Assembly: GCF_001311075.1 (NCBI RefSeq)
Contig: NZ_BBAD01000002.1
Coordinates: 41,769-105,768 of the forward strand
Source of the DNA: Secundilactobacillus similis DSM 23365 = JCM 2765
GTDB taxonomy: Bacteria > Bacillota > Bacilli > Lactobacillales > Lactobacillaceae
DNA: 64,000 nt
Reading direction: 5' to 3'
Numbering within the stretch: the stretch's first letter is position 1; every line of letters begins with the position of its first letter. The position numbers and the translations under genes were made by a program. Below the pieces are notes generated by a model. That model searched no databases. It was not told where the DNA came from and saw only the letters and a program-made list of their open reading frames with translations. This document shows, piece by piece, positions 37,480-53,429 of this stretch.

Positions 37480-39257
37480 TTGACAACAGTTGAACAACTA
37501 GGACGCTACATTGATGCCGGGGCAGCCAAGCTCCCCGCAGACTTAGTGATCGAAAACGGCACTTTGGTAAACGTGAACACGGCAGAGTATTACTTGGCCG
37601 ACGTTGCAGTCTACCAAGGTAAGATCGTGGCAGTGGACGCTGACGTGAGTGCTTACGTGGGGCCTGAAACTCGGCATGTGGACGCTACCGGGAAGTATTT
37701 GGTACCCGGTTTGATCGACGGTCACATTCACGTGGAATGCAGTAAGCTGAGCCTGACTCGGTTTGCGCAGGCGGTTGTGCCTCACGGGACGACCAGCATC
37801 GTGTCCGGCCTAGACGAGTATATTTCAGTTGTTGGGGTTGCCGGGTTAGACGAACTCTTTACCGAAATCGACCAGAGCGCCATGAAGGTGTTCTGGGGGC
37901 TGCCATACAAAACACCGTACACCATCCCAACGTCAACAATTTCCTACAACGTCTCAGCAGCGGATCATGAGCGGATCCAACCCCAAGAAAACTGTTACGG
38001 CGTCTGGGAAACGGTGCGTGAAGCCATCCAGATGAAGGATGAAGATACTTTAAAAGCGATTTTAACGGCGCAAAAATACCATAAGCCGTGTTCGGTTGTT
38101 CACCAATGGCAACCGGCATCGACTTGAACGAATTTCTCATGAGTGGCGTTCACGTGGACCACGAAAGCTATTCTCACGAAGAATTCTTGGAAAAGGCGCG
38201 TAAGGGGGTTCACGTGGTCATTCGTGAATCATCCGTAACCAAGTTCTTAAAGGAAAATATCCGAGCCATCACTGAAGGTGCGGCTGGCGTTGCCCGGCAC
38301 ACGAGTTTTTGTACTGATGACGTCAACGCCCGCGACATTTTAGATTACGGGCATTTGGATCACATGGTTCGACTTGCGATTAAAGCTGGCGTATCACCAA
38401 TGACCGCTATTCAAATGGCTTCGTTAAATAGTGCTGAAGCTTACCACATCGACGATACGGTTGGCTCCATTGCGCCAGGTAAGGACGCTGACATTCTGTT
38501 AGTTGACCAACCCGGTACTTTCAACGTTGAAACAGTCATCAGCAAGGGCCAGTTAGTGTCCGAAAATAACGAAGTGGTTGCTAGTTTCCAACCACCAAAG
38601 CGGAGCGCGACCCTTCAAGGTAAGTTGCAGCATGAGTTATTGAAGCCGGCTGATTTTGACTACCAAGTTGACTTAGCCGATGGTACCGCAACCGTTGAAG
38701 CCATTCATAGTGTTGGCCCGTTTGTCAGAAAACGCCAAGACGTTGAGTTAGCAGTCAAGAACGGCGTCGTTCAACCCGACGTTGCCAAGGATACGGCACT
38801 GGTTTCGGTAATCGAACGTTACGGCATTAACGGCAATCAATCTCGCGGATTCTTACACGGCTGGTCGATCAAACGTGGCGCCGTCGCAACCTCAGCGTCA
38901 CCGGATGACAATAACTTGGTCGTTGCCGGTGTGAACACCGATGACATGGCGTTAGCGGCCAATACTCTGATCGAATGCGGCGGTGGTCAAGTCGTCGTGG
39001 TTGACGGGAAGGTTGTGGCCTTGCTGGAATTACCAATTGGTGGCATCACCACTGATTTGACACCTGCTGAATTAGCGGCTAAGGAAATCGAATTGAAGAC
39101 GGCTGCGGAACAGCTTGGCAGCGAACTGCCAGATCCATTGTTCTACCTGTCCTTCTTACCAATTACTGCGATTCCGGACCTTGCCATTACTGATGGCGGG
39201 AACGTGGACTACACGAAGTTGGCTTACTTTGATCCGATTTTGGAATTAAATAAATAA
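37480..39257 (+). CDS. ade: Adenine deaminase (one base missing)
   Basis: This 592-residue amidohydrolase converts adenine to hypoxanthine. The metal site GLIDGHIHVECS, the central MSGVHVDHESYSHEE and HTSFCTDDVNA regions, and the C-terminal SRGFLHGWSIKRGA are typical of the Ade family. One base is missing near 38087, where KYHKP should run on as VFGCSPMATGIDLNEFL. The start is TTG 37480 after GAGAGG. It follows the purine permease after 144 bases without a clear terminator and probably works with it and adenosine deaminase to funnel purines to hypoxanthine. Confidence 0.9.
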
Positions 39258-40180: not shown

Positions 40181-41159
40181 ATGACACAGACAACCAAACA
40201 GCAAATTTTAGCCGAATTATTAAGTCACCCCGGTGACTGGCAATCTGGTGATCAACTCGCAAGTGACGCCAATATTTCCCGGGAAAGTGTTTGGAAGGCA
40301 ATCAATGGTCTTCGGAAGCAGGGCCATCAAATTGAAAGCCGGCGGAGTTTAGGGTATCGCTATCTTGGCAGTGATCGGCTGGATGCGGATGCCATTCAGC
40401 ATTACGCTGACGGTCACTTTTCGGGTGACTTACGAGTGATGGATGAAATCAACTCCACTCAAAGTTGGGCGAAGCAGGTGTTGAGTGAAACACCAGAGTT
40501 AGGCACAACGGCGTTCTTTGCGGAACAGCAAACGCAGGGGTATGGCCGACGTGGCCGGGCGTTTTATTCGCCGAAAGAAACTGGGTTATATATGAGTTTA
40601 GTTTTACCAAATCCATATACGGATATGCCGCAGCCGGGGTTATTGACGACCGGCGTAGCGGTATCGGTGGTTCGCGTATTGTCACAGTTTTTTCCTGAAA
40701 AGCCGTTCCAGTTGAAATGGGTCAACGATATTTATCTAGAGGGCAGAAGGTTTGCGGTATTTTAACCGAAACTAGCCTTGAACTCGAATCGACGTCATCG
40801 ATGGCGTTTGTGATTGGGGTTGGACTCAATTTAAGTACGGCGTCTTTCCCGGATGAAATCAAGCAAAAGGCACGGGGCATTGCGCCAGATGGTCAAGTTG
40901 ATCGGAATCGGTTGGCGGCGGCGTTGATCAGTCAAATTCAGACGGATTGTGGTACCTACATGACTGGTGCATTGATGCCGGTTTATCGTGAATGGTCTGG
41001 CGTGATTGGTAAACCGGTCACGTTGAAAGTTGGGTCTCGAACGGTGACCGGTATCGTACAAACGATCGATGATCAGGGCCAGCTTGTGTTAACCGATGAC
41101 GCCGGGCAAGTGACGGCCTATGGGAGCGGTGAAGTGACCAAGGTGAATCTGGTGTCTAA
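40181..41159 (+). CDS. birA: Biotin-protein ligase/repressor BirA (one base missing, stop codon also lost)
   Basis: The N-terminal winged helix (SDANISRESVWKAINGLRKQGH) suggests biotin-dependent repression as well as ligase activity. Catalytic residues lie in TAFFAEQQTQGYGRRGRAFYS and KWVNDIYLDGQKVCGIL. The frame breaks after 40740 at DIYL; repaired, it continues to GSGEVTKVNL. The gene should stop there, but the frame reads on into the CHY zinc finger gene. With a second base missing near 41153 the stop is TAA 41157-41159 and the protein has 326 residues, normal for BirA. Confidence 0.88.
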
Positions 41160-41163
41160 GTCA

Positions 41164-41463
41164 GTGTTGATTGCGGGACGGCTGACGGATGACGCTGGTC
41201 GGTGCCGGCATTATCACTTGGAAACGGATGTTGTGGGACTGAAGTGCGCGCGGTGTCAGACGTATTTTGCCTGCTATCAGTGCCATGATGAGTTAACGGA
41301 TCATGCGTTTGTACCGAGTCCGAAAACGGAACAGGTTGCGATTTGTGGTGTTTGTGGGCAGCGGATGACGTATGCGGTTTATGCGGTGGGGCATTGTCCG
41401 GCTTGTGGACATGGGTTTAATCCGCGGTGTGCGGTGCATGCGGGGATTTATTTTGGTGATTGA
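41164..41463 (+). CDS. CHY zinc finger family protein
   Basis: The 99-residue protein is dense in zinc ligands: CRHYH, CARC, CYQCHDELTDH, CGVC, CPACGHGFNPRCAVH. CHY zinc finger proteins bind several zinc ions; bacterial members have no settled function. GTG 41164 (reading MLIAGRLTDDAGRC) is taken as the start because homologous proteins begin so. As given, its frame is continuous with birA. See findings for fusion versus base loss. Confidence 0.8.
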   Translation: MLIAGRLTDDAGRCRHYHLETDVVGLKCARCQTYFACYQCHDELTDHAFVPSPKTEQVAICGVCGQRMTYAVYAVGHCPACGHGFNPRCAVHAGIYFGD

Positions 41464-41845: not shown

Positions 41846-42406
41846 ATGTACGAATTATTAATTTTAGGGGTATTAACGTCCCGAGATATGTCCGGCTATA
41901 AACTGCGGTGCGTGCTGGAAAGTGCGTTGGTACCGCGGCGGCCGGTTTCTAACGGCGTGATGTATCCAGTACTTAAAAAACTGGCGGAACAGGGATTTAT
42001 CGTCTTTGTGGATCAGCCCAATGACCCGCGAGGAAAGCGATTGGCGCACATTACCGAAGCAGGGATGGATCGGGTGCAGGAGCTGATGCGCCAACCCGTT
42101 GCTGAAGATGGGAAACGCGAATCGATTTACCGGTTCAAGTTTCGGGGGATGTCAGCCGTTGATGTGGCGACTCAGGAACGGATTTTAGCTGATTACGAAG
42201 CTAGTAATCAAACTGATCGCAACGTTTATCAAGAAGTTTGGGAACATTTACAAGATAAGTTACACCAATCCGATGCGCGCCACGATGCGTTAACGTGGGG
42301 CTGTCGGTCACTCGAACTAGGAATCGCCATCTGTGATGCAAAGCAGGCGTGGATCGACCAGTGTCGGGTAGAAATGAGTCAAGGGGGCAAACATGGCAAC
42401 AACTAA
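41846..42406 (+). CDS. PadR-family transcriptional repressor
   Basis: This 186-residue protein has the PadR winged helix (LLILGVLTSRDMSGYKLRCVLESAL... VMYPVLKKLAEQGFI) and a C-terminal coiled-coil dimerisation domain. PadR proteins repress nearby exporter or detoxification genes until a phenolic or drug ligand binds. The start ATG 41846 follows GGAGGTG. It overlaps the exporter gene by 14 bases, and an operator lies in its promoter, so it probably represses both. Confidence 0.87.
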   Translation: MYELLILGVLTSRDMSGYKLRCVLESALVPRRPVSNGVMYPVLKKLAEQGFIVFVDQPNDPRGKRLAHITEAGMDRVQELMRQPVAEDGKRESIYRFKFRGMSAVDVATQERILADYEASNQTDRNVYQEVWEHLQDKLHQSDARHDALTWGCRSLELGIAICDAKQAWIDQCRVEMSQGGKHGNN

Positions 42407-43946
42407 ATCAACGAAACAATGGATCGCCTTAGCTGCAATGGGCTTGGGGGTCTTCATGGGCTTACTGGACGTCACGGTCGTTAACGTGGCGCTGCCAACA
42501 ATGGTTACGGATTTTAAAACCACTTTTACGGACCTGCAGTGGGTGTTAAATGCCTACACGCTGGTCTACGCCGTCAGTTTGATGATCATGTCCAAACTGG
42601 GGGATATGTATGGTCGGAAGAAATTTTCTTAGGGTCACTGATCTTATTCGTGCTGGCATCAGCTGTGAATGGGATGGCCAGCAATTTATTAATTCTAGAT
42701 ATTGGCCGAGGCGTTCAAGCCATTGGTGGTTCCGGTATGATGTCGCTGTCGATGGCTTGGTGGCATCGAACTTTGAGGGCCGTGACCGGGGCTTAGCACT
42801 GGGCATTCTAGGTTCCATTATCGGGATGTCATCAGCGTCAGGACCGTTAATTGGTGGTTACCTGGTCGAACACTTCGGCTGGCCATCAATTTTCTACGTC
42901 AACGTACCGTTTGGCATTATTGCGGTGATCCTGACCGTGATTTACGTGAAGGAAACGCCAAGCTATGGTAAAAATCAAAAAGTCGACTTGGTGGGCATGT
43001 TCCTCTCGGCCGTTGGATTGTTTGCGGTCATCTACGGTTTAATCGTCAAAGAAGGGCATACGCACTGGGGTTGGTTAGACTTACGTGTCAGTGGCTGGCT
43101 ATTAGGCGGTGTTGTGGTACTGATCATTTTTATCGTAGCAGAAGCGCACATCAAAGAGCCAATGGTTAATTTACAAATGTTCAAGAAACCCCACTTTGTT
43201 GGGGTGGTTATCGTGGCATTTGCGTTAGGCGCGGGGATCTACTCCTTCAACACGTTCCTGACGGCGTTGATGCAGAACTACATTGGTTATTCAGCACTCA
43301 AACCGGGGTTCGGCAACTGACCATCAGTATCTGGTCGCTGATTCTGGGTCCCATTGTGGGAATCCTGAGCGCACGGTACTCGAAGAAGTGGATGATTACC
43401 ATCAGCTTGTTGGTTGGGAGCATCGGCTTCGTCCTAATGGCCCGGGCAATTGGTCCTGCAGTCACGTTCGCTGGTCTATGGCCCGGTATGGTCCTGATGG
43501 GAATCACCAACGGGATGGTTAATCCGTTGTTAAATACCGCCGGCATGGAAGGCGTCCAACCGCATGAAATGGGGATGGCGTCTGGTTTGCTAAACGTTTT
43601 TCGGCAACTGGGAACGACAGTTGGCGTGGTTGGCCTAGGCTTGATTCAGGATAGCCAGTACGAAACTTACCTGAACGGTCATCTCGGTCATCTCGGCATG
43701 CCAACCGCGGCCGTTGATGGCCTTAAAAAAGCGTTGGTCGATGCTGGACCGTTTTCGGGACACACGATTGCCTTTGCCGATCGGGTGCAACACGCGCCAT
43801 TCGCGCATGCGTTCCAGCAGGTGGTCATCCGCGCTTACGACCACGGTATGACCTCGCTAACGATTGCGGCGGCGGTCATTGTCCTGATTGGGGCAATTGG
43901 TGCGGGATTATTGCTGCAACGAAATCCGAAATCAACGGAATTATAA
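42393..43946 (+). CDS. DHA2 (14-helix) multidrug MFS exporter, EmrB/QacA type (three bases missing)
   Basis: The protein has the DHA2 marks: LLDVTVVNVALPTM in the first helix, GDMYGRKK (motif A), and LGSIIGMSSASGPLIGG (motif C). Three bases are missing near 42624, 42755 and 43302, where GRKK, SLSM and SALK change frame into IFLGSLILF, LVASNFEGR and GVRQLTISIW. Repaired length is 518 residues. It would export drugs or phenolics in exchange for protons and is probably controlled by PadR. If the breaks are real it is a pseudogene. Confidence 0.83.
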
Positions 43947-44809: not shown

Positions 44810-44838
44810 TTGAATAGTAATGATGTAAGCGCTATACT
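44810..44838 (+). promoter_or_regulatory. Promoter of the cobalamin adenosyltransferase gene with cre site
   Basis: TTGAAT (44810-44815) and TATACT (44833-44838) are 17 bp apart. TGTAAGCGCTATAC (44824-44837) matches the CcpA cre core (TGWAAnCGnT) and overlaps the -10. Confidence 0.75.
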
Positions 44839-44850
44839 GACGGTAATAAG

Positions 44851-44908
44851 TTGGCAAGGGCGCCAAATGATGACTCAGGGTTGAGTCGTTATTTGGTGCT
44901 CCTTTTTT
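44851..44908 (+). promoter_or_regulatory. EutV-type antitermination site before the adenosyltransferase gene
   Basis: A hairpin TTGGC-AAGGGC-GCCAA (44851-44866) has a six-base loop with A1 and G4. Its 3' half is shared with the terminator stem GGCGCCAAAT...ATTTGGTGCTCC followed by six T (44858-44908), so the two are exclusive. Only one hexaloop is visible here; the usual upstream partner is not seen. Confidence 0.6.
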
Positions 44909-44929: not shown

Positions 44930-45490
44930 ATGCAACTCTATACGAAAGTTGGCGACAAGGGCACCACGAAATTGGTTGGCGGCGGAACCGTCAGCAAAGA
45001 TTCTGATCGTGTGTGGGCATATGGCACGATTGATGAATTAAATACCTTTATTGGCTTGGCTGCCACTAAACTTGATTCAAAGGAACAAGATATTCAAGCG
45101 GAACTGCTGCAGTTGCAACACTGTTTATTTGATTTTGGGAGTGATCTTGCCAATCCCAACCTCAATGATGACACGATGCGCTTTAACCCAAAGTACGTTG
45201 GATGGTTAGAAAGTAAGATTGATCAGTATCAGGATGAGCCACCGGCTATTCAACGGTTTATCTTACCTGGTGGCAGTGAGCAATCGGCCTTGTTCCAGGT
45301 ATGCCGGACGATCACGCGGCGAGCGGAACGGCAGATTGTGTCACTGAATTGGTCAGTAACCTTACCAAGCGAGATGTTGAAGTTTATTAACCGATTATCC
45401 GACTATTTTTACGCACTGGCGCGGGTGGTTAACTATCGACAGGGGACACCTGAAGTTTTCTATGAGCATGGTAATCAGGTTTTTCATTAA
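44930..45490 (+). CDS. PduO-type ATP:cob(I)alamin adenosyltransferase
   Basis: The 186-residue enzyme makes adenosylcobalamin, the cofactor of EutBC. MQLYTKVGDKGTTKLVGG is the family's ATP site, and FILPGGSEQSALFQVCRTITRRAERQIV with LNRLSDYFYALARVVN (here INRLSDYFYALARVVN) matches the C-terminal active-site region. AAGGAGG precedes ATG 44930. It opens the eut locus and has its own promoter, cre and EutV-type terminator. Confidence 0.92.
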   Translation: MQLYTKVGDKGTTKLVGGGTVSKDSDRVWAYGTIDELNTFIGLAATKLDSKEQDIQAELLQLQHCLFDFGSDLANPNLNDDTMRFNPKYVGWLESKIDQYQDEPPAIQRFILPGGSEQSALFQVCRTITRRAERQIVSLNWSVTLPSEMLKFINRLSDYFYALARVVNYRQGTPEVFYEHGNQVFH

Positions 45491-45602
45491 TAACTAGACC
45501 AATTATTAATTTAGTAAATTAGTGAATTGTGCGAAACTTATCATATCAACAAATAACGCCAGTCAAAGTACTAATAGTAGTTGTAGCACAAAATAGTGTT
45601 AG

Positions 45603-45631
45603 TAGACAAATTTGTATAAAAATGGTATTCT
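45603..45631 (+). promoter_or_regulatory. Promoter of the EutX-like RNA
   Basis: TAGACA (45603-45608) and TATTCT (45626-45631) are 17 bp apart; TGG before the -10 makes it an extended element. Confidence 0.55.
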
Positions 45632-45647
45632 AAAATCAACAATTGAA

Positions 45648-45745
45648 TGAAAAGGCTTACTAAATGGAAACCGGTGTAATTCCGGTACGGACCCGCCACT
45701 GTGATTAGTAGTGGTATACTACTATCAGTCAGATCTTTTTAGTAA
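45648..45745 (+). promoter_or_regulatory. Cobalamin (AdoCbl) riboswitch
   Basis: GGAAACCGGTGTAATTCCGG, then ACGGACCCGCCACTGTGA, contains the B12-box GCCACTG and the conserved upstream hairpin. It lies inside the EutX-like RNA. Confidence 0.9.
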
Positions 45746-45762
45746 GCTACTTATGAGAAGTG

Positions 45763-45796
45763 ACATTTTGCCTCGTGGAAAAGGCGAAATGTTTTT
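45763..45796 (+). terminator. Early terminator of the EutX-like RNA
   Basis: ACATTTTGCCT pairs with AGGCGAAATGT and is followed by five T. It lies between the riboswitch and the EutV-binding hairpins. Confidence 0.8.
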
Positions 45797-46004
45797 CATG
45801 TCAATTCAACCTGCACAATGGGGTGCGGGTAACGTAAACAATGGCGTTTATGGTGGGGTCGCAGCGATGCGGCTCTTTTTTAATTGAAAAAGTTGGCAAA
45901 CGAGGCTGGGGTTAGCCCCTGAGGCTCATTTTTTTAGCGAACAGGTGTTAACCGCGTAGTGACGGCAATTGCTTTAATTTTGCTTGTGATGGCTTTCCCA
46001 ATCA

Positions 46005-46033
46005 TTTAGTGAGTTATATATTAATGCACTAAA
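46005..46033. promoter_or_regulatory. Inverted repeat upstream of the eutG promoter
   Basis: TTTAGTG (46005-46011) and CACTAAA (46027-46033) lie just before the -35. It may be a regulator site. The stretch 45882-46004 contains a GC-rich short hairpin near 45904-45925 and nothing else I can name. Confidence 0.35.
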
Positions 46034-46039
46034 AAAACG

Positions 46040-46068
46040 TTGACACCAATTCATGTAAGCGCTATATT
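46040..46068 (+). promoter_or_regulatory. eutG promoter with cre site
   Basis: TTGACA (46040-46045) and TATATT (46063-46068) are 17 bp apart. TGTAAGCGCTATAT (46054-46067) repeats the cre of the adenosyltransferase promoter at the same position relative to the -10. Confidence 0.8.
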
Positions 46069-46094
46069 TAATACGTAAATAAAATTGATAATTC

Positions 46095-46166
46095 GTACAA
46101 TGGCGTACACAAAAAAGCGATGGTGCTTTAGTTCATACTATTTAGTATGGCCTAAAGCACCTTTTT
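46095..46166 (+). promoter_or_regulatory. EutV-type antitermination site before eutG
   Basis: Hexaloop 1 is GTAC-AATGGC-GTAC (46095-46108; A1, G4). Hexaloop 2 is AAAGC-GATGGT-GCTTT (46114-46129), with G4 kept but G at position 1. Hexaloop 2 overlaps the 5' arm of the terminator GGTGCTTTAG...CCTAAAGCACC plus five T (46122-46166). Confidence 0.72.
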
Positions 46167-46208
46167 CATTTTTATTTATTAATCGAAAGTGTAAAGGAGG
46201 TTATGCGA

Positions 46209-47348
46209 TTGGAGAAAATACAGTTTAAAACACAGATCTGGTCTGGTGACGGGGCGTTATCCGGCTTGGAAGACATCCATGATCAGCGGATCTTTGTTGT
46301 AACTGATCCATTTATGGTTGAATCAGGCAGTTTGAGTAAGATTACCGACCATCTTGAAGCTAAGAATGAGTTGTCGATCTTCTCGGATATCCAACCTGAT
46401 CCGCCAATTACCAAGATTACCAAAGGAATCGCCGCACTTCAGGAATTTAAAGCAACGTTGTTGGTTGCTGTTGGCGGTGGTTCAGCGATTGATGCAACGA
46501 AGGCGATGAAGTATTTCGCCAAACAAGCATCACACGGTGAAGTCGACCTCGATTTGATTGCGGTGCCAACAACGAGTGGGACCGGATCGGAAGTAACCAA
46601 CTTCGCAGTCATTACCGACAGCGAAAAGGGCATCAAATACCCGCTGGTAACTGATGAGATTTTACCAAAGATTGCCTTGCTAGACGCTAACTTGGTTGTC
46701 TCAGCACCACAACATATCACAGTTGATACGGGGATGGACGTCCTAACGCACTGTTTGGAAGCTTACGTTTCAATTAACGCCAACGATTTCTCGGACGCGT
46801 TAGCAGAAAAGGGATTCCGGATGGTGTTCGAATACCTACAACGGGTAAGCGATGACGGTTCTGACTTGGAAGCTCGCCAGAAGATGCATGATGCGTCATG
46901 TATCGCCGGAATGGCGTTTAACCTCGTTAACCTGGGATTGAATCACGGTATCGCGCACGCAGCTGGTGCCCAGTACCATATCCCACACGGTCGACTGAAC
47001 ACAATTCTCATGCCACACATCATTGAATTCAACGCTGAAATGGAAAAGGGTATCATGGAAACACCAAACCAGGCTGCCATCAAGTATGCAAAGTTAGCAC
47101 GCTTTCTTGGCATTCGCGGATCCAACCCCAAGATTGCGGTTCGTAGTTTGATCAACCACATTATCCAATTCCGTAAGAAGTTGAACATGCCAGCAACTTT
47201 CCAAGACTACGGTATCAGCCATGAGCTCTTCGAACAAACGAAGCACGAAATTGCTGAAGCTGCCCTCAAGGATGGCACAACGGCTGCTAACCCTCGGGTA
47301 CCAAGCGCTGATGATGTGATCAAGATTTTGGAGACAAGCTACTCTTAA
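46209..47348 (+). CDS. eutG: Iron-type alcohol dehydrogenase EutG
   Basis: This 379-residue group III dehydrogenase reduces acetaldehyde to ethanol and recycles NADH in the microcompartment. AVGGGSAIDATKAMKYF is the nucleotide site and GTGSEVTNFAVITD the family core. Metal ligands fall in VDTGMDVLTHCLEAYVS and LNHGIAHA...IPHGRLN. AGGAGG sits only two bases before ATG 46203 but eight before TTG 46209, so TTG is preferred. The role as EutG rests on family and place. Confidence 0.88.
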   Translation: MEKIQFKTQIWSGDGALSGLEDIHDQRIFVVTDPFMVESGSLSKITDHLEAKNELSIFSDIQPDPPITKITKGIAALQEFKATLLVAVGGGSAIDATKAMKYFAKQASHGEVDLDLIAVPTTSGTGSEVTNFAVITDSEKGIKYPLVTDEILPKIALLDANLVVSAPQHITVDTGMDVLTHCLEAYVSINANDFSDALAEKGFRMVFEYLQRVSDDGSDLEARQKMHDASCIAGMAFNLVNLGLNHGIAHAAGAQYHIPHGRLNTILMPHIIEFNAEMEKGIMETPNQAAIKYAKLARFLGIRGSNPKIAVRSLINHIIQFRKKLNMPATFQDYGISHELFEQTKHEIAEAALKDGTTAANPRVPSADDVIKILETSYS

Positions 47349-47467: not shown

Positions 47468-47535
47468 TATCAACCATGTGCTTCTGATAGTAACTGAAAA
47501 GTTGATTTTAACTATGGCGATAAGGGGTGGTTATC

Positions 47536-48103
47536 GTGAATGAACGAATTGTAATTGTTGATGATGAACCGATTACTCGGTTAGACATTCGAGATATTTT
47601 GGAACAGGCAGGGTATGAAGTTGTTGGCGAAGCGGGTGATGGGTTTGAAGCCATCGATGTGTGCCAACGGCAAAAGCCTGACCTGGTCATCATGGATATC
47701 CGGATGCCATTGTTGGACGGATTAAAGGCCGGCAAACGAATTATTGAAGATCAGTTGACTCAGTCGATTATTTATCTCTCTGCTTACAGTGATGAAGCGG
47801 ATACGGATACGGCTGGGCGAATTGGGGCAGTTGGTATTTAGTAAAACCATTATCAGAGCGGTCCTTGCTCACAACCATTCACGTTGGCTTAGCGCGAGTT
47901 GAGCACAACCGGCAGCTTGCGAGAAGGTTGAAAAATTGTCAGTGAAGTTGGAACAACGTAAAGTGATCGAACGCGCCAAGGGTGTTTTAATGGCAGAAAA
48001 CAACATGACCGAAAACGCCGCTTACAAGATGCTTCGTGATCTGAGTATGACCAAGCGTTGCCCAATGAACGACATTGCCGAACTGATCGTGACTGATGCC
48101 TGA
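47536..48103 (+). CDS. eutV: Response regulator EutV with ANTAR domain (two bases missing)
   Basis: EutV binds nascent RNA hairpins to prevent termination. The receiver domain (residues 1-120) has IVDDEPITR and the phosphoacceptor Asp in VIMDIRMP. The C-terminal ANTAR domain is RKVIERAKGVLMAENNMTENAAYKMLRDLSMTK. Bases are missing near 47835 (GAVG should continue YLVKPLSERS) and near 47933 (NRQLA to KVEKL); the repaired protein has 189 residues. GTG 47536 is chosen for AAGGGG. Its stop overlaps the eutW start. Confidence 0.88.
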
Positions 48104-49532
48104 TGACTGAACTAGCAGATCTTTGCCATAAGTATACGAGTCTAACGGATACTGATATTGCAACCTTAGTGGCCGAGACGAAGCTGATTGAACTTAATCC
48201 AGCGTATCGTGACTTTGACGTTTTTATCGACGCGCGTAACGAATTAAACAATCAAGCCATTGTGATTTACCATAAGCCTCCTACTAGTGTGCCTTCGCTT
48301 TATCGCAAGAAGGTCGTCGGCCAGGATGCACTTAGAACTAACGAACCCGGCGTGTTTCATACGCTAGAGACCAAGCTTGATTCCGTTGGGTTATTAGCAG
48401 AGACGCAGGAACACCGTTTGATCCAGCAGAAAATCTATCCTATCTCCCGAAATAATAGGACGATTGGGGTTACGATCGTTGAATCGGACGTTTTGGATGA
48501 CTTTAAAGTTCAAAACCTCGAACTTAAGTACAGTAACGTGTCAGCAACGATTCAGATGTTGGGACGTCTGGACACAACGATTACGGACCAGTTGGCGGAC
48601 GCCATTTTGTGTTTTGACAAGAGCGGTCGGTTAGTACTTGCCAACCATACAGCGTTGACGGTGTACAAACAGGTCGGTTATATCGGTAACATCGTTGGCC
48701 AAGTTTACGATAATTTGTCGTTAGACGGGTCGGAATTCAAAACAGTGTTGAAACAGTTACAAGGCGTTTCAGAGGACGAGCAGCCATTAACTTATAACTT
48801 TAGTTATCTGAACTACTACTTTACTACCAGAAAGTTCTGGAATCGCAAGAATCAGCAAGTTGTCATTCTGATTCAGGATAAGACGGATGTAAAGATGAAA
48901 GAAGCTGAGATCATTTCCAAATCGGTTGCGATTCGCGAGATCAATCACCGGGTTAAGAATAACTTGCAGTCGGTGATCTCATTACTACGGATCCAACAAC
49001 GCCGATTAAAGAGTGCGGAAGCGAAAAAAGTCTTAACTGAGAGCGTCAGTCGCATCATGGCGATTGCCTCGACTTACGAATTAATGTCGAAGCAGTTGGG
49101 TGATGAGACGAATCTGCAAGCCACGATTCAACTATTAGTTTCCCACTTTGTCCAACTTAACGATGAAACCGGAAGTTGGATATAACGACTGATATTGATC
49201 CTAAGATCACCGTAGACAGTGATCAGGTCGTGACCATTTCAATAATTGTTAACGAATTATTGCAAAACGCCGTGTCACACGCCTTTCCAGAAGAACAAAC
49301 CACACCGCCTAACAACGTGTTGGTTGAAGGAAAGGTTAACGATGAAATCATTACGATGCGCATCAAAGACAATGGCGTGGGCTTCGACCTCGATAATACG
49401 CGTCCTGGCAGCTTGGGGTTAACCATCATTCGGAGTTACGTTAAGGATAAGTTGTTGGGTAAATTGAAAATTGAATCGACAACACAAGGAACTGAAGTTA
49501 GTTTCTCGTTTGATCAAAAACCACAACATTGA
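48103..49532 (+). CDS. eutW: Sensor histidine kinase EutW (one base missing)
   Basis: This 476-residue cytosolic kinase phosphorylates EutV when ethanolamine is present. The N-terminus is a sensing domain, followed by a PAS-like domain (AILCFDKSGRLVLANHTAL) and a HisKA_2-type dimerisation helix with phospho-His in REINHRVKNNLQSVISLL. The HATPase part (IVNELLQNAVSHAF, IKDNGVGF, GLTIIRSYV) lies after a base loss near 49172. Repaired length is normal. The last codons and stop are part of an ANTAR hairpin for eutA. Confidence 0.88.
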
Positions 49533-49640
49533 CGTTGTGGCAGTAGCAATGGGGCTCAAGATCAAACCATTTTCTAGCATGAACCAATTTTTGAATTGGA
49601 TCGTGTTTTGAAGCTGGTTTGACCTTGAGCCCCATTTTTT
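49521..49640 (+). promoter_or_regulatory. EutV-type antitermination site before eutA
   Basis: Hexaloop 1 is CCACAAC-ATTGAC-GTTGTGG (49521-49540) and spans the eutW stop codon. Hexaloop 2 is AGC-AATGGG-GCT (49545-49556). Both loops have A1 and G4. The terminator arms GGGGCTCAAGATCAAACC (49551-49568) and GGTTTGACCTTGAGCCCC (49616-49633), followed by TTTTTT, overlap hexaloop 2, so EutV binding would prevent the terminator. Confidence 0.85.
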
Positions 49641-49658: not shown

Positions 49659-51092
49659 ATGAAAGACGACACGATACTGAGTGTTGGGATCGACTTAGGG
49701 ACATCCACAACTCAGTTGATTCTATCGCGACTCACGATTAAAAACTTCGCGTCAGCATTTTCAGTGCCCAGAATTAATATTGCTAAGAAAGAGGTTATTT
49801 TCCAGAGTGATATTATCTTCACTCCTCTGGCCACCCAAACTGAAATTGACGCCGAGGCGATTAAGAAGTTTGTTGCTGATCAATATCAAAAAGCAGGTAT
49901 CTCCAAGCAAGACATCCAAATGGGTGCCGTGATCATCACGGGGGAAACGGCGCGGAAGCAAAATTCCAGTGCCGTGACCCACGCCTTGAGTGGCTACGCC
50001 GGCGACTTCGTGGTTGCGACGGCCGGCCCCGACCTAGAAAGTATCATCGCTGGGAAGGGTGCTGGTACCAACGTGATTGCCAAGAAGACTCGCAAGAACG
50101 TGGTCAACATGGATATCGGTGGGGGAACTAGTAACCTGGGACTCTTCAACGATGATGATGTGCTCGATACCGCTTGTTTCGATATTGGTGGTCGTCTGAT
50201 TAAAGTCACACCAGAGACTCACGAAATTACCTATATTTCACCCAAAGTTAAGCAATTAATTCAAGAACTTCACTTGGATATCCACGAAAAAACAGTGGCG
50301 ACTAAGGAACGGTTACAACCAATCATTGACGTGTTGACGCAAGTCCTCGAAAACAGTATTGGTTTAGGGAATAAGAGCCCCTACTTCGACCTGTTCGTAA
50401 CGAACCACGCCTTACATCCAGAGTACTTGGTTGACGGCGTTACCTTCTCCGGTGGCGTTGCCGATTGTCTGAATGAAATTTTACCAGCTGATGAATTCCG
50501 CTATGGTGACATTGGCGTCTTGCTGGGTCACGCCGTTGCGCAGTCCGAAATTTTCAAACAAAAGACTGTCTATCCTTCCGTCGAAACGATTCGTGCAACA
50601 GTCGTGGGTGCGGGATCACACACAACGGACGTGACTGGGAGCACGATTGCCTATACTGACGGCATCCTTCCCCTACGTAACTTACCGATCCTTAAGATTG
50701 CGAAGGGCGATGAGGGGCTTGAAGCGGATGATTTAGCAACCCGGATATCCGAAAAGATTAAGTGGTATCAAGTTCAAAATGAACTGAACAACGTTGTTTT
50801 AGCCTTGGTTGGCAAGCGCAGCCCAACCTTCTCAGATATTCAACGTTATGCAGCCGGCATTGTCAAAGGTGCTCAAGTTTTAATTGATAAACATGAACCG
50901 CTCATCATCATGGTTCATGAAGATATGGCCAAAGCGCTAGGTCATAGCTTGTTTGCACAGTTACCAGACCGTTATCCGTTTGTCTGCATTGACAGCGTGA
51001 AGGTTGAAAATGGGGATTACATCGATATTGGGGAACCCGTTGCGGGCGGCGAAGTGCTGCCTGTCATCGTGAAAACCTTGGTCTTTGGCTAA
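49659..51092 (+). CDS. eutA: Ethanolamine ammonia-lyase reactivating factor EutA
   Basis: This 477-residue actin/Hsp70-fold protein exchanges damaged cobalamin in EutBC for fresh cofactor using ATP. SVGIDLGTSTTQLILSRL is the phosphate-1 loop, and NMDIGGGTSNLGLF phosphate-2. The gene is intact and starts the long EutV-controlled operon. GGAGGGAGG precedes the ATG. Confidence 0.93.
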   Translation: MKDDTILSVGIDLGTSTTQLILSRLTIKNFASAFSVPRINIAKKEVIFQSDIIFTPLATQTEIDAEAIKKFVADQYQKAGISKQDIQMGAVIITGETARKQNSSAVTHALSGYAGDFVVATAGPDLESIIAGKGAGTNVIAKKTRKNVVNMDIGGGTSNLGLFNDDDVLDTACFDIGGRLIKVTPETHEITYISPKVKQLIQELHLDIHEKTVATKERLQPIIDVLTQVLENSIGLGNKSPYFDLFVTNHALHPEYLVDGVTFSGGVADCLNEILPADEFRYGDIGVLLGHAVAQSEIFKQKTVYPSVETIRATVVGAGSHTTDVTGSTIAYTDGILPLRNLPILKIAKGDEGLEADDLATRISEKIKWYQVQNELNNVVLALVGKRSPTFSDIQRYAAGIVKGAQVLIDKHEPLIIMVHEDMAKALGHSLFAQLPDRYPFVCIDSVKVENGDYIDIGEPVAGGEVLPVIVKTLVFG

Positions 51093-51130
51093 CTGTAAAC
51101 CATCTAACCTGTAAGGGAGGCAACACAATA

Positions 51131-52494
51131 ATGATTTTACAAACAATGTTATCTGATCAATTATTCAGTTTTAAATCCGTTAAAGAAGTTATGGCAAAAG
51201 CAACGAAGAAAAGTCTGGTGATAAATTAGCCGGCGTTGCCGCAGCCGATTCAACAGAACGAGTTGCTGCCAAAATTGTTTTAGCACAATTAACCTTAAAC
51301 GACATTTACAACAACCCAGCAGTGCCATATGACATTGATGCCGTTACTCGGATCATCACCGATGGCATCAACAAGCGAATTTTCAACGAAATCAAGAACT
51401 GGACGGTTTCAGACCTACGCGAATGGTTATTATCAGATTCAACCACCGACCACGAAATTCGTCGGATTCGCCAAGGCTTAACCTCAGAAATGGTTGCAGC
51501 CGTTACTAAGTTAATGACCAACATGGACTTGATCGTTGCGGCTAAGAAGATTCACGTTGAAAAGACTGCCAACACAACTATTGGTCGTCCAGGAACCTTT
51601 AGCTCACGGCTTCAACCGAACCACCCAACCGACAACATCGACGGTGTGATGGCAACGGTTATGGAAGGTTTGAGTATGGGGATTGGGGATGCCGTTATCG
51701 GCTTGAACCCTAACGATGACTCCGTTGATAATGTGGTTAAGATTTTGAACAAGTTCGAAGAATTCCGTGCGCAATGGAACGTACCTACTCAATGTTCTGT
51801 TTTAGCCCACGTTACCACTCAAATGGAAGCCATTCGTCGTGGTGCACCTTCTGGCTTGATCTTCCAATCAATCGCTGGTTCTGAAAAGGGGAACACGGCC
51901 TTTGGTGTCACGGTCGACATGTTGGACGAAGCTTACGACTTAGCCTTACATGAAGGTCAATGCCCAGGTCCTAACGTCATGTACTTCGAAACTGGTGAAG
52001 GTTCTGAATTATCAGCCGAAGCCAACTACGACGCCGATGAATTAACCATGGAATCTCGTTGCTACGGCTTAGCTAAGCGCTACGATCCATTCTTGGTCAA
52101 CACGGTGGTTGGGTTTATCGGACCTGAATACCTCTACGATTCAAAGGAAGTTACTCGTGCCGGTCTTGAAGATCACTTCATGGGCAAGTTACAAGGCATC
52201 TCAATGGGGTGTGACGTCTGCTACACCAACCATATGAAGGCCGACCAAAACGACGGCGAAGACTTAACGGTTCTGTTAGCTGCCGCAGGTTGCAACTACA
52301 TCATGGGTATCCCTCATGCAGATGATATCATGTTGAACTATCAATCAACTGGCTTCCAAGAAACCGCAACGGTTCGTGATATCTTCGGTTACCACCCAAT
52401 CAAGGAATTCGAAGACTGGATGGAATCAATGGGTATTAGCCACAACGGTAAGTTAACTGACCGCGCCGGCGACGCTTCAATTTTCTTAAACTAA
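51131..52494 (+). CDS. eutB: Ethanolamine ammonia-lyase large subunit EutB (one base missing)
   Basis: EutB holds the active site that splits ethanolamine to acetaldehyde and ammonia using adenosylcobalamin. The frame begins MILQTMLSDQLFSFKSV, breaks near 51203, and continues as NEEKSGDKLAGVAAA. Typical segments are GRPGTFSSRLQPNHPTDN, VPTQCSVLAHVTTQMEA and MGCDVCYTNHMKADQND. The repaired length, 454 residues, is that of known EutB proteins. eutC follows 18 bases later. Confidence 0.93.
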
Positions 52495-52512
52495 AAAAGA
52501 AGGTGATATGAC

Positions 52513-53429
52513 ATGAATGAACAAGATTTAAAAGCAATGATTGAGAACATTTTGTCAGACGTAACTGCGGGTAACACTTCAGACAACAACACGTCATCAC
52601 AAGCAACGGCAACAACGACGGATACGAGTTCGGAAGTTTCCGGAGAAGTATTGGACGATATCACCAAGATCGACTTAAAGAAGCAATTCTTAGTACCCAA
52701 TGCTGCTGATCGTGATGGCTATCTTAAAATCAAGTCATTTACACCAGCTCGTTTAGGGATGTGGCGTGCCGGGTCTCGTTACAAGACCGCTTCAGTCCTT
52801 CGCTTCAGAGCTGACCATGCCGCTGCTCAAGACGCTGTCTTCAGCGACGTTGATCCAGAATTACCAAAGGAAATGGGCTTCCTTGAAACCCAAACAACCT
52901 GTGAATCAAAGGATGAATACTTAACTCGTCCTGATCACGGCCGGAAGTTCTCTGATGAAATGGCGGCTAAGATCAAGAGTGGTGTTAAGCAAAACGCTAA
53001 GATTCAAATCGTTGTTGGTGACGGCCTAAGTTCAGCCGCAATTGAAGCTAACGTTCGTGAAATTATTCCAGCCATTCAACAAGGGTTAAAAGTTTACGGC
53101 TTGGGATTTGAAAACAAGGACGTCATCTTCGTCAAATACGCTCGGGTTGGCGCTGAAGACCATATCGGTGATTTAACTGGCGCAGACGTTGTCTGCATGC
53201 TCGTCGCGAACGGCCAGGGTTAGTTACTGCTAAGTCAATGAGTGCTTACATTGCCTACAAACCAACTGTCGGCATGCCTGAAGCAAACCGGACCGTTGTT
53301 TCCAATATCCATGACGGTGGGTTACCAGCCGTTGAAGCAGGGGCTTACATTGCTGAACTGTTAGATAAGATGGTTCGCTTGAAGAAGTCCGGGATCGACT
53401 TGAAGACCGCTGAAAACGCTGGTGCTTAA
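52513..53429 (+). CDS. eutC: Ethanolamine ammonia-lyase small subunit EutC (one base missing)
   Basis: EutC forms the lyase with EutB and contributes to cobalamin binding. The N-terminal 50 residues are a flexible Ser/Thr/Asp-rich stretch, suited to targeting. Core segments are [29 protein letters not shown] and [16 protein letters not shown] base is missing near 53206: CMLV should continue [18 protein letters not shown]. The repaired protein has 305 residues. Confidence 0.92.

Follow-up and report, generated by a model that had tools for sequence, protein, structure and literature searches.

The sequence at positions 45639–45881 on the + strand of the window is very probably a noncoding RNA of the EutX/Rli55 type, gated by adenosylcobalamin (AdoCbl) and predicted to sequester the response regulator EutV. 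The window is the whole stretch of DNA analysed, 64,000 nt from Secundilactobacillus similis DSM 23365 = JCM 2765 (GCF_001311075.1, contig NZ_BBAD01000002.1, positions 41,769–105,768, forward strand), and the RNA sits in it between eutT (upstream) and eutG (downstream), near eutVW. EutX of Enterococcus faecalis and Rli55 of Listeria monocytogenes were reportedly described in two primary papers of 2014. These RNAs carry a riboswitch and an EutV site on one molecule, which AdoCbl shortens at the end of the aptamer, according to the accessible sections of PMC5821096. These sequence features of the type are found here: an aptamer at the predicted 5′ end, a terminator-like last aptamer hairpin, tandem hexaloops with A at position 1 and G at position 4, the absence of overlap between hexaloops and terminator, and a eut cluster with EutVW. 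An EutX/Rli55-like element had been proposed at this site in a first-pass annotation, and that reading is supported by the aptamer family, covarying hexaloops, a separate late terminator, the gene context and co-occurrence with EutV. All parts named there are found in place, with coordinates that are off by a base or two at most.

The AdoCbl riboswitch model RF01482 matches over its full length at 45639–45797 (+ strand) with 79.9 bits and E = 3.7e-13, the gathering score being 50; a covariance search with the Rfam cobalamin model had been proposed as a check in the first-pass annotation. The B12 box GCCACTG on which that annotation relied falls inside the match. Apart from a lower-scoring, overlapping match of the same clan, this is the sole Rfam match above gathering score in the 64-kb window, and at E ≤ 0.001 it stands alone in the genome. 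Of 11 Rfam matches listed for 45500–46220, ten are sub-threshold (e.g. ciliate telomerase RNA, microRNAs) and were judged to be chance. The element thus resembles the RF01482 family in giving a full-length match above gathering score, but differs from it in its expression platform, the predicted target of which is a decoy instead of a gene.

The predicted AdoCbl-stabilised early terminator (45762–45797, + strand) is seen in the Rfam model and in a terminator scan. The hairpin occupies 45762–45793 and is followed by a T run. It had been placed at 45763–45796, and can now be equated with the last hairpin of the aptamer itself (12 pairs, then the T run, in the Rfam model), with no added piece 3′ of the aptamer. 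The hairpin has a delta G of −18.2 kcal/mol and is followed by five T; the values in 11 lactobacilli range from −11.6 to −19.3 kcal/mol, and two comparators folded from other families give −9.7 and −11.1 kcal/mol. The stable early terminator of the window might halt transcription without ligand as well. The aptamer of Furfurilactobacillus rossiae has no T run after it.

Two ANTAR-type hexaloop hairpins follow on the + strand, both seen in the fold, in a hexaloop scan and in covariation. P1 (45809–45830) begins eleven bases past the aptamer and has arms ACCTGCAC/GTGCGGGT with the loop AATGGG at 45817. P2 (45833–45852) has arms CGTAAAC/GTTTATG with the loop AATGGC at 45840, and the two loops are 23 bases apart. 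The first-pass annotation had these loops, with A1 and G4, correctly; its two stems of seven pairs hold for P2, whereas P1 has eight pairs, one more than claimed. The late intrinsic terminator (45855–45881, + strand; terminator scan, fold and covariation) is clear of P2. It has nine pairs at 45855–45876 and then a run of six T, in agreement with the final terminator claimed at 45856–45881. When 45798–45890 is folded, P1, P2 and the late terminator stand side by side at −34.2 kcal/mol, as against a shuffle mean of −21.5 (z = −4.5); one of 200 shuffles folds as well as the native sequence. A terminator scan of 45450–46300, which overlooked the eutG leader terminator, gives three sites (shuffle mean 0.5), one of them on the − strand; the two on the + strand are the early and late terminators. 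On both strands of the window a scan for tandem ANNGNN hexaloops gives three candidate pairs, and P1/P2 is the only pair with two AATGG loops.

A predicted promoter of the RNA's own, read from the sequence, lies at 45603–45631 (+ strand) and consists of a weak −35 TAGACA and an extended −10 TGGTATTCT. All 11 lactobacillar elements have an extended −10 (TGnTAnnnT) 15–19 bases 5′ of the aptamer; in three of them it was read by eye, as the script had reported a match farther from the aptamer. Of shuffled sequences, 13% are expected to contain the pattern at some place within a stretch of this length (55 bases). An extended −10 at the same place in all 11, together with a predicted promoter belonging to eutG, would fit a transcript separate from eutG.

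A search with EutA yielded 10 named loci (eight from Lactobacillaceae, one from an Enterococcus MAG and one from Streptococcus), and the AdoCbl aptamer is present in all of them. The plan of aptamer, two hexaloops and late terminator is found in 11 of 11 aligned Lactobacillaceae elements (window, L022–L029, L034, L037). The species that share it with the window are Lentilactobacillus dabitei, L. diolivorans, Levilactobacillus wangkuiensis, L. angrenensis, L. faecigallinarum, L. brevis, F. rossiae and Bombilactobacillus mellis; the genomes G033 and G170 share it as well. Over 11 distinct sequences, 93.8% of cells in P1, P2 and the late terminator are paired, as against 79.7 in shuffles, and 15 of the 22 pairs show changes on both sides (8.6 in shuffles). 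On four of five measures not one of 500 shuffles attains the native value; on the fifth (further pair types) two of 500 do. Kinship among the 11 sequences inflates covariation counts, but the control in which the structures are slid along the alignment retains kinship, and there pairing falls to 26–47%. G is at position 4 in all 22 decoy loops and A at position 1 in 21; the exception is P2 of L. brevis.

Among 397 Lactobacillaceae genomes RF01482 is found in 16 at E ≤ 0.001 and in 10 above cut-off, with stricter filters by which weak matches may be lost, and an ANTAR match at E ≤ 0.001 is found in 21. Ten of the ANTAR matches score 67.7–80.4 bits and 11 score 21–25 bits; four of these 11 genomes clear the Pfam cut-off (28.7–33.8 bits) once neighbouring pieces are counted. 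The same 10 of 397 genomes carry both the above-cut-off RF01482 match and the strong ANTAR (EutV) match. One of them, G261, has the element on a 6.7 kb contig, where it is like the enterococcal L030; it is probably contamination, and its locus, L033, was left out of the alignment. The genome of the window is alone among the 15 listed for its genus in having an RF01482 or ANTAR match. The eut cluster probably moves as a unit, and therefore the co-occurrence is not independent proof of function. Genome G033 has a second RF01482 match of 52.8 bits (L048).

The genes 3′ of the RNA are eutG, eutV, eutW, eutA, eutB, eutC, eutL and more microcompartment genes; the genes given with coordinates below are on the + strand. 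Upstream, eutT (44930–45490; TIGR00636, 204 bits) encodes a PduO-type cob(I)alamin adenosyltransferase, the type of enzyme that makes AdoCbl. Downstream, eutG (46203–47348) is an iron-containing alcohol dehydrogenase by family resemblance, under the EutG equivalog cut-off. Protein matches place eutV (47524–48094, a REC-ANTAR response regulator in several frames in the assembly), eutW (48085–49532, a sensor histidine kinase in two frames), eutA (49659–51092, ethanolamine ammonia-lyase reactivase) and eutB (51101–52494, ethanolamine ammonia-lyase large subunit in two frames). Promoters are predicted from the sequence for eutT (TTGAAT-17-TATACT, 44810–44838, with a cre-like box TGTAAGCGCTATA embedded at 44824) and for eutG (TTGACA-17-TATATT, 11/12, 46040–46068, with a cre-like box embedded at 46054). 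A segment of about 150 bases (45882–46040) separates the decoy terminator from the eutG promoter and contains additional hairpins and a short reading frame for a hydrophobic product. It is single copy in the genome and its origin was not found. The eutG promoter lies within about 50 bases of the decoy in 8 of 10 relatives, by eye.

In three + strand leaders of the window a hexaloop hairpin does overlap a terminator. The eutG leader carries the tandem hexaloops GTAC-AATGGC-GTAC and AAGC-GATGGT-GCTT (46095–46128, hexaloop scan; the second loop starts with G), and the 5′ arm of its terminator (46122–46166) overlaps the second hairpin. The eutA leader carries CCACAAC-ATTGAC-GTTGTGG and AGC-AATGGG-GCT (49521–49556, hexaloop scan), and its terminator (49550–49640) likewise overlaps the second hairpin. 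The eutT leader shows a single hairpin, TTGGC-AAGGGC-GCCAA (44851–44866), that overlaps the 5′ arm of a terminator with a T run (44859–44908). A scan of the window and eight named Lactobacillaceae loci, in which some known leaders are unlisted, gives 69 terminators, 11 of them with a hexaloop of the form C[ANNGNN]G at their 5′ arm. Ten belong to the leaders of eutG, eutA or eutT, and the eleventh is the late terminator of the window, the loop of which can be read in this way. A third hexaloop in that late terminator (loop AGCGAT) is by eye absent at the same spot in the aligned relatives and was set aside as chance. A G at loop position 1 occurs in three hexaloops (the second of eutG in the window, the second of the L. 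brevis decoy and the first of eutA in L. angrenensis). In B. mellis (L029:6581-6650) the eutG leader seems to be without the second hexaloop and terminator, with the first hexaloop and the decoy kept.

This geometry bears on the reading of the element as an ordinary cis-acting AdoCbl riboswitch for eutG, in which the hexaloops and late terminator would be an EutV-run antiterminator and read-through would be under joint control. The element does lie upstream of eutG on the same strand, and the same idea came first to the authors of the E. faecalis work, according to the accessible part of PMC5821096. However, P2 and the late terminator form together without overlap, unlike the hairpins of the eutG, eutA and eutT leaders, and eutG has a near-consensus promoter 3′ of the late terminator as well as hexaloops and a terminator of its own. 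In a scan of the window and L022–L031, the terminator arm starts 12–15 nt after the start of the second loop, past the hairpin, in 8 of the 9 lactobacillar decoys scanned (L026 was missed), and in the four eutG leaders reported with a terminator (one from Enterococcus) it starts −3 to +3 nt from that point. The overlap that marks an antiterminator leader is thus not found for the second hexaloop of the decoy. The helices of P1, P2 and the late terminator are mutually compatible in fold and alignment, and since hairpins and late terminator do not overlap, binding of EutV should not open the late terminator. Control of eutG in cis is very unlikely.

It is also very unlikely that the RNA is a remnant, left without a partner in a strain whose eut cluster is decaying. 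What speaks for decay is that L. angrenensis reading frames match 16 genes of the window, of which 5 span more than one frame (eutV, eutW, eutB and eutC among them); in six relatives this holds for 1 of 95 gene matches. The query frames extend from one stop codon to the next, and a short leading piece may therefore be sequence from upstream of the gene. The split-frame genes are at 37480–39257, 40181–41463, 42393–43946, 47524–49532 and 51101–53223 and include, besides the eut genes, adenine deaminase, birA and an MFS exporter, which are broken too. In the same genome rpoB is likewise broken, its six matches falling on open frames of 320, 459 and 894 codons, one with an internal TGA, and rpoC gives three matches. 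Because these two genes are essential and unlikely to be dead, sequence errors are the likely source of the frameshifts. The frameshifts in eutV, eutW, eutB and eutC are thus probably sequence errors, true eut pseudogenes in this strain being a lesser possibility. The three helices of the decoy show no broken pair. The first-pass annotation had written of clean signals, but the eutV and eutW frames are not open in the assembly, most likely through sequence errors. The ANTAR piece of the window (47930–48091) scores 74.5 bits. The intact EutV of L. brevis matches E. faecalis EutV (6wsh) end to end with E = 7.5e-77 and keeps R142, K143, E146 and Y164, with K147 changed to R; these positions were transferred by counting, the residue numbers being those in the accessible text of PMC8934654.

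It is exceedingly improbable that the element is a plain B12-dependent attenuator, controlling no gene, that happens to be followed by random hairpins. Short hairpins are common and ANTAR loops fix just two bases, but covariation over 11 sequences, the fold z of −4.5 and the co-occurrence with EutV speak against chance.

As an EutX/Rli55-type decoy, the RNA would be driven by the predicted promoter just 5′ of the aptamer. With AdoCbl bound, the last aptamer hairpin would stop transcription near 45797 to give a short RNA of ~160 nt free of hexaloops. Without AdoCbl, polymerase would reach the late terminator near 45881, giving an RNA of ~244 nt with two strong hexaloop hairpins. These would bind phosphorylated EutV, the long RNA acting purely as a decoy with no read-through. 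EutV would be free of the decoy when ethanolamine is present, EutW is active and AdoCbl is present, and would then bind the terminator-overlapping hexaloops before eutT, eutG and eutA, so that transcription proceeds into the cluster. EutT makes AdoCbl, and the loop would thereby reinforce itself. If this reading is true, the eut genes are on only when ethanolamine and AdoCbl are both present.

An AANGGC hexaloop overlapping a terminator (stem length 4–6 pairs, by eye) precedes 7 of 8 intact lactobacillar eutT genes that adjoin the decoy; B. mellis is without it. In L. diolivorans and F. rossiae no close eutT accompanies the decoy. In L. dabitei (L022:1-219) the eutT leader is kept before an apparent truncated eutT remnant in the orientation opposite to the decoy. 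By eye, a single pair of the stem covaries, at one split of the tree, which makes for modest evidence of the hairpin. The predicted −10 of the window lies 12 bases before the hairpin, too close for a first hairpin to fit in between. The eutT leader is apparently a candidate single-hexaloop ANTAR target.

Cre-like boxes were judged against the general cre consensus. By the strict pattern, a box lies within the eutG promoter at 8 of 11 loci (window, L022–L027, L037) and within the eutT promoter in the window, L023, L024, L025 and L028; L. brevis has one before eutG that is one base off the pattern. The strict pattern gives none in the decoy promoter of the window; a near-match occurs in the decoy promoter of G033. 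That the window has boxes in the promoters of eutT and eutG and none in that of the decoy suggests catabolite repression of the targets, not of the decoy.

A fuller scheme can be put forward only tentatively. The circuit may be a compact, self-reinforcing version of EutX in which EutV would lift termination at eutT by way of one hexaloop, with no hairpin for recruitment, the AdoCbl made by EutT would shorten the decoy and more EutV would be freed in turn. This would form a two-key latch for the ethanolamine microcompartment, with catabolite control of the CcpA type acting on the promoters of eutT and eutG, which have the cre boxes, and not on that of the decoy.

The RNA is like EutX/Rli55 in its AdoCbl aptamer with a last hairpin that acts as terminator (here predicted), in an EutV site on the same transcript untied to an antiterminator (again predicted) and in its location between eutT and eutG with EutVW as partner. 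It is unlike them in that the hexaloops of the 11 lactobacilli begin 14–23 and 39–47 nt past the aptamer, with a plain terminator next. In other families of the order the first hexaloop begins 38–171 nt past the aptamer at 16 of 17 RF01482 loci measured, and the remaining locus has no hexaloop by the rule of the scan. These 17 are from 30 loci fetched among 92 genomes of the order with a match, L114 and 12 further loci of genus g47 having been left out. Which of them are from Listeria or Enterococcus is our assumption. Two of the loci from other families, L102 and L110, have three hexaloops before the eutG leader. The decoys of genus g47, outside Lactobacillaceae (L087, L092, L101), show a T run ~29 bases after the aptamer and an extra hexaloop ~44 bases before the next one.

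The eutG and eutA leaders of the window resemble the ANTAR antiterminator leaders of E. faecalis eutP, eutG, eutS and eutA, as given in the accessible part of PMC3369931, in that the hexaloops are tandem and the second overlaps the terminator. The eutT leader differs from these in showing one hexaloop. In the same part of that paper E. faecalis eutP requires both hexaloops, and the corresponding part of the EutV structure paper (PMC8934654) has contacts to one hexaloop at a time. On whether a single hexaloop is enough for ANTAR antitermination, the genetics (two hairpins; PMC3369931) and the structure (one hexaloop; PMC8934654) differ, and the eutT leader would offer a natural test. What is new here is the compact lactobacillar form with hairpins that avoid the terminator, together with eutT, eutG and eutA leaders in which hexaloops overlap terminators, that of eutT apparently single. 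The compact form offers a small model of riboswitch-controlled protein capture. Among the open-licence papers listed by the searches, none describes the lactobacillar version in its title or opening abstract, and Lactobacillus is unmentioned in the main text of PMC5821096, PMC3369931 and PMC8934654.

EutV sites beyond eut were sought in 9 genomes with a model (R1) built from 21 decoy and eutG sites and scored on the best 150 of about 1,050–1,950 first-look candidates per genome. Among these best 150 candidates per genome there are 28 matches at E ≤ 1, and the 17 below E 0.01 are all decoys or eutG leaders. The 11 weaker ones comprise three eutA leaders, by distance from the eutG leader, one B. 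mellis eutG leader remnant, and seven that were rejected because they lie inside genes or, by eye, have no overlapping terminator. R1 recovers 5 of the 9 eutA leaders found by the hexaloop scan, none of which is in the training set (that of the window is missed), so that weak sites could be missed. In L. brevis all three matches among the best 150 candidates are at eut, and no regulon outside eut is seen there.

L. brevis ATCC 14869 carries the same RNA (L028). By RNA-seq, ethanolamine plus AdoCbl alters the expression of 116 of its genes, ethanolamine alone that of 14 and AdoCbl alone that of none, according to the accessible sections of PMC11086012, of which section 9 does not name the 14 genes. 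The table for ethanolamine plus AdoCbl includes eutT, G, V, W, A, B and C; eutH is unchanged by qPCR, and pdu and apf rise too. The authors of that 2024 study propose a novel sensing mechanism as EutR is absent, and a riboswitch is unmentioned in PMC11086012. With the same RNA present in this strain, the response to ethanolamine plus AdoCbl has a ready explanation: EutVW and the decoy would yield an AND gate like that of L. brevis. The rise of pdu and apf would need another explanation or a weaker site, since L. brevis has no R1 match outside eut among the candidates scored. A match to cbiC is absent in L. brevis, L. wangkuiensis and G033; it is present in the genome of the window and in 5 of 8 others searched, and these cbiC-bearing genomes may make B12.
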